A stretch of 63,943 nucleotides of DNA, taken from contig JAPONS010000048.1 in the NCBI GenBank assembly GCA_026713825.1, forward strand, positions 1-63,943, given 5' to 3'. The DNA is from Chloroflexota bacterium (lineage in GTDB: Bacteria > Chloroflexota > Dehalococcoidia > Lucifugimonadales > UBA1127). The position numbers and the translations under genes are program-made. Below the pieces are notes generated by a model. It did no database searches. It worked only from the letters and a program-made list of their open reading frames with translations, and had not been told where the DNA came from. Below, in pieces: positions 26,991 through 59,127 of the stretch (position 1 is the first letter of the stretch; every line of letters begins with the position of its first letter).

Positions 26991-27593
26991 GTGAGAACGG
27001 AGCACCCGGTGGCAATCAGCATGAGCTTGGCCGAGCTTGTTGACCTCATCAACGTGCTCGCGGAGCGCGCCCCGCTGACCATGGTCGCCTTCGACGGCCC
27101 AAGCGGCTCCGGCAAGTCCACCCTCACCCTGAATCTGCAGAAGTTGCTGCCTGGCAGCCAGGTCGTTGACATCGAGTTCTTCTACAGCGACGTTGGCGTA
27201 GACCCGCCCGACGGCCTCTCGCCGGAGGAGTGCTACGAGCAGCACGTAGACTGGCGAGCGCTCGACGAGCAAGTCCTCCGCCCCCTCCGCCGGGGCGAGA
27301 CGGGCAGCTACCAGCTCTACGATTGGATAGCGGAGCAGAAGGGCGACTGGGTAAGCGTCACGCCTGAGGGGATCGTGCTGATAAACGGCCTCTACGCCAT
27401 GCGCCCTGAGCTCATGGACGTCTACGACCTCACCGTCTACGTGGACACGCCCCCCACTGAGCGCACAGCCCGGCTCGCCACGCGTCCCGACAATCCCGTC
27501 TGGGTCGAGCGCTGGGCCATCGGCTTCGACTGGTACATCGACCACATGCGCGTCGAGGAGCGCGCGGACATCGTCATCTCCGGCGTTCTGTGA
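26991..27593 (+). CDS. P-loop kinase, uridine kinase-like
   Basis: 200 residues from GTG 26991; later in-frame starts (GTG 27009, ATG 27021) are possible. A Walker A motif reads FDGPSGSGKST near residue 36, DIEFFYSD is a Walker B-like acidic segment and VLINGLYAMRPEL matches the uridine kinase/phosphoribulokinase strand that precedes the lid. VDTPPTERTARLATRP and RVEERADIVI complete the fold. It likely phosphorylates a nucleoside or a small hydroxyl compound; the exact substrate is unknown. Confidence 0.75.
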   Translation: MRTEHPVAISMSLAELVDLINVLAERAPLTMVAFDGPSGSGKSTLTLNLQKLLPGSQVVDIEFFYSDVGVDPPDGLSPEECYEQHVDWRALDEQVLRPLRRGETGSYQLYDWIAEQKGDWVSVTPEGIVLINGLYAMRPELMDVYDLTVYVDTPPTERTARLATRPDNPVWVERWAIGFDWYIDHMRVEERADIVISGVL

Positions 27594-49513: not shown

Positions 49514-49572
49514 GCCGAAACACAATTCCGGTGCAGCCCCGCTCGCCGATGAACTGAGCGGGGTTTTGTTTT
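49499..49572 (+). promoter_or_regulatory. Transcription attenuator ahead of sulfite reductase
   Basis: Terminator: CCCCGCTC (49537-49544) with GAGCGGGG (49556-49563), followed by TTTTGTTTT (49564-49572). Competing stems: CTGCAC-A-CGG (49499-49508) with CCGGTGCAG (49528-49536), and CGGGG (49506-49510) with CCCCG (49537-49541), which would block the terminator's left arm. A ribosome held at the Cys codons leaves CGGGG free; one that runs to the TAA at 49513 covers it. Mechanism inferred from base pairing. Confidence 0.75.
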
Positions 49573-49592
49573 GGAAGTCAAAAGGAGGGCCC

Positions 49593-51362
49593 ATGACCAC
49601 GTCTTCTGACAACCGATTTCAACCCAACGTCATCATCCCGGTTCTTCCGGAAGAGATAGACCACTTTGACAACGAGGCCAAGCGGTTCCGCTCCGGCGAC
49701 CTCGACGCCGCCGAATTCCGCGCCTTCCGCCTCCGCCAGGGCGTCTACGGCCAGCGCCAGCCCGACAACCAGATGATGCGCGTCAAGGTGCCCCTCGGCC
49801 GCATGACCCCCGACCAGCTCGAGTCCCTCGGCCGCATCGCCCGCGACTACACGCCGCTCAAGCGCGGCCACATCACCACGCGAGAGAACGTGCAGTACCA
49901 CTTCCTCAACCTGGACGACGCCGCGGAGGTCATGCGCACCCTCGGCTCGACCGGCCTCGGCAGCCGAGAGGCCTGCGGCAACACCGTCCGCAACGTCACC
50001 AGCTGCCCGCTGACCGGCGTCTGCCCGGAGGAGGTCTTTGACCCCAGCCCATACGCCGTCGCATACGTGCGCAACTTCGTGCGCCGCGACTTCACCAACA
50101 ACATGCCCCGCAAGTGGAAGACTGCCTTCAGCGGCTGCACCCACGACTGGGTCATGACCGCCATCCACGACATCGGCTTCCACGCCGTCATCCGCGAGAT
50201 CGACGGTGTCGAGCGCAAGGGCTTCCGCATCGTCGTTGGCGGCGGCACCAGCATCCAGCCGCTCATCGCCCAGGAGCTCTACGAGTTCGTGCCTGTCGAG
50301 GACTTCCTCAAGGTCTCCGAGGCATGCCTGCGGGTCTTCAACGCCGCGGACGAGCTCCGCAAGAACAAGATGAAGGCCCGCGTGAAGGTGCTCATCAACC
50401 GCATCGGCATCGACGCCTTCCGCGAGATGGTCGAGAAGGTCATGGAAGAGGAGCTCGCGGACGTCACCTATGACCTCGACGAGCTCTCCGCCGGTGAGTA
50501 CGAGGACCCCACGCCGCCGCCTCCCGCCGACTACCCGCCCTTCCCGAATGATGACCCCGCTTTTGAGCGTTGGCTCGGCAGCAACGTCATCGGGCAGAAG
50601 CAGGACGGCTATAGCGCGGTCTTCATCAAGCTCCGCCTCGGCAACGTCACTGATGAGCAGTTCTTCCAGCTTGCCGACATCTCCCGCGACTTGGCGGGCA
50701 GCATCCGCATGACGCTGCGCCAGGACATGACGCTCCAGTGGGTCCCCAACAACGCCCTGCACGTCCTGTACGAGAAGCTCGTCGCCGTCGGCATGGCCGA
50801 GCCCGGCGCCAACGAGTTGAGCGACATCGTCTCCTGCCCCGGCACCGAGAGCTGTGCCCTCGGCATCACCTCCTCACAGGGCCTAGCCGGCAACCTGTGG
50901 GACGCCCTCAGCGACTACAAGTCCCACGACGAGCTTGCCCGCAACATCCGCATCAACATCTCCGGTTGCCCGGACGGCTGCGGCCAGCACCACCTCGGCA
51001 ACATCGGCTTCCACGGCGCCGCCATCAGGGTCGGCAGCGCCCAGGTGCCCGCCTACGAGGTCTACATCGGCGGCAGCCAGATCAAGCCCGTCCGCATCGG
51101 CCAGCACCTGCGCGTCAAGGTCCCGTCCAAGCGCATCGAGGAAGCAATCAAGCTCATCGTCGACGACTACGTGGAGCACCGGAACAGCGGTGAAGTCTTC
51201 AACGACTACGTCGACCGCATCGGCGCGGCGACCTACGAGGATCTGCTGAAACCCGTCTCCACTGTGCCGGAGCTCGGTCGCGAGACCATCCACTACTACA
51301 TCGACTGGAACCGCGACGTCCTCTACAAGGTCGAGCGCGGCGAGGGTGAGTGCGCAGCCTAG
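49593..51362 (+). CDS. Ferredoxin-type sulfite/nitrite reductase, assimilatory sulfite reductase likely
   Basis: 589 residues from ATG 49593 (AAAAGGAGG upstream). Two ferredoxin-like half domains each with a SiR repeat, then the siroheme/[4Fe-4S] motif: SCPGTESCALGIT and INISGCPDGCGQHHLGNIGFHG (Cys-x5-Cys ... Cys-x3-Cys). VRNVTSCPLTGVCPEEVFD and KRGHITTRENVQYHF are siroheme-pocket stretches. It reduces sulfite to sulfide using ferredoxin, cytoplasmically. Nitrite reductases of this family look similar; the upstream cysteine leader favours sulfite reduction. A ferredoxin pair is encoded at 41805-42512. Confidence 0.9.
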   Translation: MTTSSDNRFQPNVIIPVLPEEIDHFDNEAKRFRSGDLDAAEFRAFRLRQGVYGQRQPDNQMMRVKVPLGRMTPDQLESLGRIARDYTPLKRGHITTRENVQYHFLNLDDAAEVMRTLGSTGLGSREACGNTVRNVTSCPLTGVCPEEVFDPSPYAVAYVRNFVRRDFTNNMPRKWKTAFSGCTHDWVMTAIHDIGFHAVIREIDGVERKGFRIVVGGGTSIQPLIAQELYEFVPVEDFLKVSEACLRVFNAADELRKNKMKARVKVLINRIGIDAFREMVEKVMEEELADVTYDLDELSAGEYEDPTPPPPADYPPFPNDDPAFERWLGSNVIGQKQDGYSAVFIKLRLGNVTDEQFFQLADISRDLAGSIRMTLRQDMTLQWVPNNALHVLYEKLVAVGMAEPGANELSDIVSCPGTESCALGITSSQGLAGNLWDALSDYKSHDELARNIRINISGCPDGCGQHHLGNIGFHGAAIRVGSAQVPAYEVYIGGSQIKPVRIGQHLRVKVPSKRIEEAIKLIVDDYVEHRNSGEVFNDYVDRIGAATYEDLLKPVSTVPELGRETIHYYIDWNRDVLYKVERGEGECAA

Positions 51363-57106: not shown

Positions 57107-57496
57107 CTAGTCCATCACCCCGCCCACCGCCGCGAAGAAGGACGCCGCCCCAATCTCGAACAGCCAGTGGTTGTTGAACCGGATGTTGTCGAGCTTCCGA
57201 GCGTCCACGGCCTCGAACACCAGCCGCAGGTCATCCAGCGGCACAGGCTGCGAGAGCCGCTCGTACTCGAAGGTGAATGACTGCTGCCGGTGGTCGACGT
57301 CTTCCACAACGCCTAGGCCGGGCACGCTCTTGGGGTACCGGGCATACCCGCCCGTGCAGTACAGCAGCACGAGGTCCCCCGGCACGATGCCCTTGGGCCA
57401 CCCGGCATTCACGCCGAAGTGCCCCTCCTCCACCGTCACGTGCCCCGGCTTTGTCGGGTCGCCGAACACAGCCAGGTAGTAGCGAGGTTCTCTCAT
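57107..57496 (-). CDS. EVE/PUA-like small protein
   Basis: 129 residues from ATG 57496. Reads REPRYYLAVFGDPTKPG, NAGWPKGIVPGDLVLLYCTGGY, PGLGVVEDVD, then IRFNNHWLFEIGAASFFAAVG. It shares layout with the gene 58 bases downstream, so they are tandem paralogues. A close link to base modification or restriction is possible for EVE-type proteins but not shown; no methylase or nuclease lies next to it. Confidence 0.6.
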   Translation of the reverse strand: MREPRYYLAVFGDPTKPGHVTVEEGHFGVNAGWPKGIVPGDLVLLYCTGGYARYPKSVPGLGVVEDVDHRQQSFTFEYERLSQPVPLDDLRLVFEAVDARKLDNIRFNNHWLFEIGAASFFAAVGGVMD

Positions 57497-57523: not shown

Positions 57524-58360
57524 CTAGTCCGTCGTCAGCGCCGTGTCCTCCAGGTTCGCCCACTCGCCCATAGAGCCGTCGTAGTTGCGGACGTTGTCGT
57601 AGCCAACCAGCCGCAGCGTCAGCAGTCCGTGCGCCGCACGGATGCCGCCCTGTCAGTAGGTGATCACCTCTTTGTCCGGCGTCACCCCCGCCGCGTCCAG
57701 CAGCGCCCGGATCTCCTCCGCCGTCTTCCACGAGCGGTTGGGCTCCGGGTTCATGAAGTTCGTCCACTCCAGGTGGACCGATCCCGGCACGTGCCCGATG
57801 CGCTTGTTCCCGCGCGAGTTGTCGCCCGTCCACTCCCCGTCCGATCGCACGTCCAGGAAGATGACGCCGCCATCCCCCACATGCGCCTTCCCGTAGTCCA
57901 GCGAGCATAGCACCGAGTCGTCCACGACGGGCGTGAACGTCGCCGCCGCCGGGCTCGCGACCTCCCGGGAAATCGGACGTCCCTCGCGGAACCACCGCTC
58001 CCAGCCCCCGTTCAGCACCTTCGCGTTGGTGTGCCCGTAGTAGTTGAGCGCCCACCACATCCGGCACGCCGGCACGCCGCCTGCCGTGTCGTACGACACC
58101 ACCGTCGTGTCCGGCCCGACGCCCAGGTCTCCCATCAGCTTCGCGAACTGGTCCGGCGGCATGACGTGCAGCGAGTCGTTCGCGTCCTTGATGAACGGGT
58201 TCACCCTCAGCCCCACGGCGCCCTTGATGTGCGCCTTCTGGTACAGGTCGAACGTCGCGCAGTCGATGACGCGCACGTTGGGGTCGTCCAGGTGTTCCTC
58301 CAGCCAGTCGGGCTCGGCAAGGAGCTCCGGCCTCGTGTAGCCTGCGGTTGATTGAGTCAC
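57524..58360 (-). CDS. Two-domain rhodanese (thiosulfate/3-mercaptopyruvate sulfurtransferase) with in-frame TGA at the active-site Cys: selenoprotein candidate
   Basis: 278 residues reading TGA 57653-57655 as residue 236; without recoding the protein stops at 235. Start GTG 58360 has GGGAGGTGG upstream. N-terminal rhodanese domain: VRVIDCATFDLYQKAHIKGAV; C-terminal: VIFLDVRSDGEWTG, IGHVPGSVHLEW. The active-site loop reads VITY-TGA-QGGIRAAHGLL, where relatives have YCxxGxRAAH, and conserved sequence continues (GYDNVRNYDGSMGEWAN) to TAG 57524. The residue lost to TGA is exactly the persulfide-forming Cys. A hairpin follows the TGA. Alternatives: a pseudogene or a sequence error. No selABCD genes are in the window. 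Confidence 0.8.
57620..57647 (-). promoter_or_regulatory. Candidate bacterial SECIS hairpin after the rhodanese TGA
   Basis: Starting 6 bases after TGA, the mRNA can form CGGCAUCCGUGC/GCACGG..UGCUG, about 12 base pairs with one bulged C, closing on a GGC loop whose first base lies 18 bases after the TGA. Bacterial SECIS loops usually sit about 16-37 bases after UGA and carry a G in the first two loop positions, as here. GC-rich coding sequence forms such stems by chance often, so it is supportive rather than decisive. Confidence 0.6.
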
Positions 58361-58467
58361 CAACCACCTCCCGGTGCGGAATGTCGCCAGTATACTCCAC
58401 ACGCCCCCCGCATATGCACTATCATGGAAGCGCGAACGCAATTGCGGCCGGCAGGCCGGGAGGACAC

Positions 58468-59127
58468 ATGCTCTTTGACTTTCACACCCACACGTTTCTC
58501 AGCGACGGCGTGCTCTCGCCGATAGAGCTCATCCGGCGCGCCGTCAGCAACGGCTACACGTCCATCGCCGTCACCGACCACGCCGGCATCAACGACCAGG
58601 AGCGTGTCCTCGACATCCTCGTCAAGGAGTGCGCCGAGGCCACCGAGAACATGGGCATCACCGCCGTCCCCGGTGTCGAGCTCACCCACGTCCCGCCGCA
58701 CCGCATCGCCGAGGCCGCCCGCCGCGCTAGGGCCAACGGCGCCCGCATCGTCCTCGTCCACGGTGAGACCATCAAGGAACCCGTCGCCAGGGGCACCAAC
58801 CGCGCCGCCTTGGAGAGCCCCGATGTCGACATCCTCGTCCACCCCGGCATGATCACGGAGGAGGAGGCCGACATCGCGCGCCAGGCCGGCATCTACCTCG
58901 AGCTCTCCGCCCGCGCCGGCCACAGCCTCACCAACGGCCACGTCGCCCGCACCGCGATGGAAGTCGGCGCCAACCTCGTCGTCGACTCCGACGGCCACGC
59001 CCCCGGCGACCTGCTGACTGAGGAACTTGTTCGCCAAATCGTCATCGGCGCCGGACTCTCGGAGGCGGAGTTCACCCCAATCCTGGAGACCAACCCGATG
59101 GCGCTCCTCTCCAAGGCCACCGCCTAG
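58468..59127 (+). CDS. PHP-domain metal-dependent phosphatase-like protein
   Basis: 219 residues from ATG 58468 (GGGAGGACAC upstream). Metal-ligand motifs of the PHP fold are LFDFHTHTFLSDG, VTDHAG, GVELTHV, VHGE, VHPGMI and DSDGHAP near the end. Members include histidinol phosphatase (HisK type), the PolC/PolX editing domain and nucleotide phosphodiesterases. Length and absence of other domains fit a stand-alone phosphoesterase. Substrate not assigned. It diverges from the rhodanese. Confidence 0.85.
   Translation: MLFDFHTHTFLSDGVLSPIELIRRAVSNGYTSIAVTDHAGINDQERVLDILVKECAEATENMGITAVPGVELTHVPPHRIAEAARRARANGARIVLVHGETIKEPVARGTNRAALESPDVDILVHPGMITEEEADIARQAGIYLELSARAGHSLTNGHVARTAMEVGANLVVDSDGHAPGDLLTEELVRQIVIGAGLSEAEFTPILETNPMALLSKATA

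Follow-up and report, generated by a model that had tools for sequence, protein, structure and literature searches.

The rhodanese-like gene examined here, from the window (the whole stretch of 63,943 nucleotides of Chloroflexota DNA that was analyzed), raises the question of whether an in-frame TGA ends the protein or is decoded as selenocysteine (Sec) and, if it is decoded, what the resulting enzyme would do. Standard gene calling stops the frame at this codon. Translation with TGA read as U reveals a single in-frame TGA followed by 42 sense codons before the TAG, and the positions are collected in the table below. The UGA at codon 236 of this rhodanese gene is, with strong support from sequence comparison, probably recoded to Sec. 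The gene very probably encodes a Sec-containing two-domain rhodanese-type sulfurtransferase, in which the UGA would be decoded by way of SelB and a hairpin and Sec would serve as the nucleophile.

Table. Features of the Sec rhodanese locus (positions of the window)
Feature	Position	Strand	Details
Small protein	57107..57496	-	129 aa without a Pfam match; adjacent gene on the downstream side; kept in the genus
Predicted two-domain Sec rhodanese CDS	57527..58360	-	278 aa; GTG start; U236; stop TAG 57524-57526
Putative SECIS hairpin	57620..57647	-	upper stem of 7 bp; apical loop GGC (57635-57633); single bulged base; lower stem of 5 bp
Predicted Sec codon 236, in-frame TGA	57653..57655	-	at the catalytic residue of the CxxGxR loop, here YUQGGIR
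Shine-Dalgarno-like GGGAGG ahead of the GTG start	58367..58372	-	seen in the sequence
PHP-domain protein	58456..59127	+	divergent upstream neighbor; kept in the genus

The product matches the Pfam family Rhodanese (PF00581) in a profile search, with an E value of 1.6e-39 over two stretches. U236 lies in the second rhodanese domain and aligns with the catalytic Cys in the rhodanese structures 1uar and 1e0c, in agreement with an earlier note on this DNA, which had given the start of the open frame and the position of the TGA at the active-site Cys correctly. An AlphaFold model built with 37 relatives as input reaches a pLDDT of 93.8, and a fold search with this model returns 1uar (TM 0.90) and 1e0c (TM 0.88) as the best PDB matches, both over the whole length. 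Alignment and predicted structure establish the fold and the catalytic position of a rhodanese. The presence of two domains, a catalytic residue in the second of them, and a loop of the CxxxxR/T type is that of two-domain rhodaneses of the COG2897 type. The best NCBIfam match is NF008557 (PRK11493, SseA), which covers residues 15 to 274 with 123.9 bits, below the curated cutoff of 250 for 3-mercaptopyruvate sulfurtransferase; no NCBIfam model scores above its own cutoff for the product. The UQGGIR loop of the window protein differs from the MST loop of SseA (NF008557/PRK11493). The name "persulfidase," under which the gene had been described, is wrong, the family being that of the two-domain rhodaneses (sulfurtransferases).

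The host genome, a draft of 114 contigs and 2.64 Mb with 96% completeness, contains selA (544 bits), selB (315 bits, or 347 bits including a C-terminal piece), the tRNA-Sec gene selC (68.5 bits, anticodon UCA), and selD (380 bits), all four of the genes for which a search had been suggested. With these genes, the organism has what it needs to decode UGA as Sec. The selD gene has a Sec codon of its own within the motif CAGUAAKF, and host SelD is thus predicted to be a selenoprotein as well (L138:277-1383, contig C17), with a predicted SECIS hairpin whose GGA loop lies 20 nt past the TGA. Elsewhere in the window, the sole other in-frame TGA flanked on both sides by a coding signature, at 27591 (+), was considered as a second selenoprotein candidate but rejected; it is an ordinary stop between genes that, judging by their translations, are uridine-kinase-like and FabI-like.

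Codon 236 is TGA in each of the five genomes of the genus. Among 118 fetched homologous places, some of which were fetched twice from two collections, this codon is TGA in 108, TGC in 9, and TGT in 1; the tree takes 89 rows. The in-frame UGA stands where homologues have Cys, as in bacterial selenoproteins. The 79 Sec-form rows, mostly 40 to 60% identical to the window protein, read through without a second stop. The conservation of the 42 codons past the TGA up to the TAG, which the earlier note had described, is confirmed, and the decay after the TGA that would have spoken against its reading is absent from these rows. Across 250 genomes of the order, exactly one TGA is present in all but 10 of the best ∼150 places listed, its exact position being confirmed for the fetched loci, and selA scores above its curated cutoff in 199 of 247 genomes. 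Most homologues in the wider phylum have no stop.

With three more distant Cys paralogues as the outgroup, the distribution of Sec and Cys over the 89-row tree needs three changes. Within the Sec-rich part, Cys occurs on one long single branch (L060) and in a clade of six rows that nests within the Sec forms, and Sec was apparently lost to Cys at at least two places in the tree. The return to Cys is not simply due to a loss of the Sec machinery because most of these Cys genomes retain tRNA-Sec and selB; only the genome of L102 has neither above the cutoff, and machinery loss was rejected as the cause of the Cys forms. Additional Sec rhodaneses were observed in some genomes. One genome of the genus encodes a second Sec rhodanese that has diverged deeply (L029; G004 contig C101:15240-16049), with 41% identity, the sequence UHGGARAA, and its own paired hairpin, GGGC-GGC-GCTC. 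In L072, L081, L090, and L093, a pair of Sec rhodanese genes, both with TGA, lies in tandem or close together on one contig.

In rhodanese chemistry, the catalytic residue takes up a sulfane sulfur and hands it on to a thiol or another acceptor. The mechanism proposed for the window protein follows this scheme. With the hairpin that begins 5 nt downstream (7-bp upper stem, GGC loop) as its guide, SelB would deliver Sec-tRNA(UCA) to the UGA of codon 236, and the ribosome would continue for 42 codons to the TAG, completing the catalytic domain. The Sec selenolate would then act as the nucleophile and take the sulfane sulfur from thiosulfate, 3-mercaptopyruvate, or a persulfide donor, and a presumed Sec-Se-SH intermediate would pass the sulfur to a thiol acceptor. 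Donor, acceptor, and physiological role beyond sulfane-sulfur transfer are putative.

A selenoprotein whose main task is different, either thiol peroxidase or reductase activity or the delivery of selenium to SelD through a perselenide, is a real possibility, albeit an unlikely one. Rhodanese has been considered a carrier of both selenium and sulfur (PMC9369223), and a redox function is assumed for the majority of predicted selenoproteins (PMC9312934). The Sec form may also have a special task beside the Cys rhodanese paralogue of the same genome (L032). Against such a role stand the retention of the full two-domain rhodanese fold with its CxxGxR loop, the location of the gene away from the sel genes, and the persistence of Cys versions where selB and tRNA-Sec are kept. 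A resolving Cys partnered with U236 was considered and rejected, since no candidate resolving Cys is invariant in the 79 Sec-form rows (C34 is present in 57 and C152 in 48), which speaks mildly in favor of sulfur transfer rather than a redox cycle of two thiols. Sulfur transfer by a Sec rhodanese is the preferred reading. The genomic context is uninformative in this respect: the neighbors, mostly conserved in the genus, are the PHP protein, two small proteins without a Pfam match, and a HhH-GPD DNA glycosylase-like protein, with no sulfur genes among them. A nitrite/sulfite reductase family protein with NIR_SIR domains is encoded ∼6 kb away at 49566-51362 (+); any link to the rhodanese would be conjectural.

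The hairpin downstream of the UGA is the minimum free energy fold and has 12 bp, with one G-U pair in the 5-bp lower stem and an energy of -16.7 kcal/mol when folded alone. This largely agrees with the 12-bp hairpin with a GGC loop noted earlier, except that it begins 5 rather than 6 bases past the TGA and contains one bulged base. The bSECIS model calls for a loop of 3 to 9 nt that has G in its first two positions, a stem of 4 to 16 bp, a spacing of 16 to 37 nt, and a minimum free energy of at most -7.5 (PMC13188914). The window hairpin fits every one of these constraints, with its GGC loop, 7-bp upper stem, spacing of 17 nt from the UGA to the loop, and energies of -14.4 to -24.0 kcal/mol, so that the comparison with published SECIS models proposed in the earlier note comes out in favor of the element. 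An Rfam scan of the window returned five tRNAs only and no match to a SECIS family.

The energy of the hairpin by itself is weak evidence for a SECIS in such GC-rich coding DNA. Compared with dinucleotide shuffles, it is mildly unusual (z of -1.55); among synonymous shuffles, the window gene reaches a z of -3.8, while 73 Sec genes show a mean z of -0.92 and a median rank of 0.3. Fold energy was rejected as proof because it is too weak in both shuffle tests, and tests of codon entropy and codon usage were used instead. Across the 126 columns in which 50 or more of the 78 Sec genes have a residue in common, codon entropy is lowest at A243, H244, and A242, all within the hairpin, followed by Q237. 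Of the 9 Arg columns, R241 varies least, and the same holds for G245 among the 19 Gly columns. The residues RAAH are spelled CGT-GCG-GCG-CAC in 52 of 53 genes, compared to 0.28 expected from the codon use of the genes themselves. The conservation of synonymous codons in the hairpin is far beyond chance, with the remainder of the gene serving as the control for the part of this conservation that reflects shared ancestry. Together with the fit to the bSECIS model, this constraint supports the hairpin as the SECIS element.

Changes in the stem are often two-sided and sometimes cost an amino acid change. A G-C pair is replaced by T-A in L075 and L076, accompanied by Ala-to-Ser and His-to-Asn changes, and a C-G pair is replaced by G-C in nine rows. 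Cys homologues do not have the stem. About 12 rows break several stem pairs and show an alternative hairpin further 3', which points to an apparent relocation of the SECIS inside the coding sequence in subclades. The usual stem is gone in L074 to L089, except for L075, L076, L078, L081, and L084, as well as in L094, L098, and L099. The alternative stem in most of L074 to L089 has a G-containing loop ∼8 nt further 3'; L098 and L099 show a third stem, whose loop is GTTC, and a similar one forms in L094.

These data also bear on the remaining explanations of the TGA. That it is a genuine stop or a mutation inactivating the gene, leaving the 3' part as a remnant of a pseudogene or behind a truncated protein, would agree with standard gene calling, which ends there, and with the use of TGA as an ordinary stop elsewhere in the window; this is nevertheless very improbable. 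The 42 C-terminal codons are conserved in the 79 rows of the Sec form, none of which has another stop, and this refutes a pseudogene; the TGA is common to scores of genomes and replaced by Cys codons only, and synonymous constraint is highest just past it. Insertion of another amino acid, such as Trp or one from near-cognate readthrough, is extremely improbable, even though readthrough of UGA is possible without Sec. Non-Sec recoding was rejected on the replacement in homologues, which is always Cys and never Trp, on the role of TGA as a terminator of ordinary genes, and on the synonymous constraint; tRNA-Sec, SelA, SelB, and SelD are present besides, and the SECIS hairpin is conserved. A sequencing or assembly error, conceivable in a draft of 114 contigs, has a negligible probability and is refuted by independent assemblies, with the same TGA in four other species-level genomes of the genus from different projects. 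That five genomes of the genus, each assembled independently, and scores of genomes beyond it share the TGA bears out the earlier argument that neither a random stop nor an error would be expected at this codon. Decoding of the UGA as Sec is the reading retained here.

The Sec form appears close to universal in one Chloroflexota order, which is rich in SAR202 and apparently sponge-associated genomes. A Sec rhodanese is also encoded in two complete "Candidatus Binatia" chromosomes and two draft genomes labeled Deltaproteobacteria (L037, L038, L041, and L049), all nested inside Chloroflexota in the tree. Of these four genomes, all contain selB and three contain tRNA-Sec, in each case above the cutoff. 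The nesting suggests horizontal transfer of the Sec gene together with its SECIS, and transfer is likelier than contamination because two of the four are complete chromosomes. A further-reaching proposal is distinctly unlikely: a lineage-defining Sec rhodanese with a chemistry beyond that of Cys, for example, carriage of selenium as a perselenide for making selenophosphate or rapid turnover of sulfane sulfur under oxidation, which would have been passed with its SECIS to Binatota while the SECIS shifted along the mRNA and stayed functional. For the Sec sulfurtransferase itself, standard annotation drops the catalytic end, and abundant uncultured bacteria are recorded with a truncated rhodanese. 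The order-wide set provides a natural laboratory for Sec/Cys exchange, with dozens of Sec forms, a nested Cys-reverted clade mostly keeping the Sec machinery, and hairpins with co-changed or relocated base pairs. It also offers testable evidence for selenium in the sulfane-sulfur metabolism of marine and sponge-associated Chloroflexota.

The reading of the gene as a Sec enzyme is strongly supported, but the Sec form of the family has already been published (PMC1088965, PMC9312934, and PMC13188914). The Sargasso Sea study of 2005 counted a Sec COG2897 rhodanese, with three sequences, among its new predicted families (PMC1088965), and this form was found again in the Global Ocean Sampling set (PMC2398784). 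A 2022 review has an entry for COG2897/SseA with MQG53192.1 (PMC9312934), and a 2026 review has one for rhodanese form 4 with the motif UxxG and MCY3690685.1 (PMC13188914). The window gene probably belongs to this published family, for which AACY01016424, MQG53192.1, and MCY3690685.1 are the reference records. It shares with Sec COG2897/SseA form 4, as characterized in that entry, the PF00581 domain, the UxxG motif (here UQGG in a protein of the COG2897 type), and a SECIS just downstream. In the passages on this family, the published reports give few sequences and no lineage, and the titles and abstracts of open-licence papers on SAR202 and selenocysteine give nothing on the rhodanese gene.

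Compared with solved structures, the window protein shows the same fold and loop position as the rhodanese of Thermus thermophilus (1uar; 37% identity) and RhdA of Azotobacter vinelandii (1e0c; 33% identity), both of which use Cys, in the loops CRIAER and CQTHHR, respectively. Other Sec proteins also carry Sec in a rhodanese domain, but the PspE forms belong to a different COG, COG0607, and TsoB, a rhodanese/DsbD fusion, has a different domain arrangement, neither being a two-domain SseA protein (PMC13188914). New in the present analysis are the near fixation of the Sec form in one Chloroflexota order, the constraint at the RNA level, the reversions to Cys, the moved hairpin, and the presence in Binatia. 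The prediction for this rhodanese is better supported by evolution at the RNA level than most predictions of this kind.
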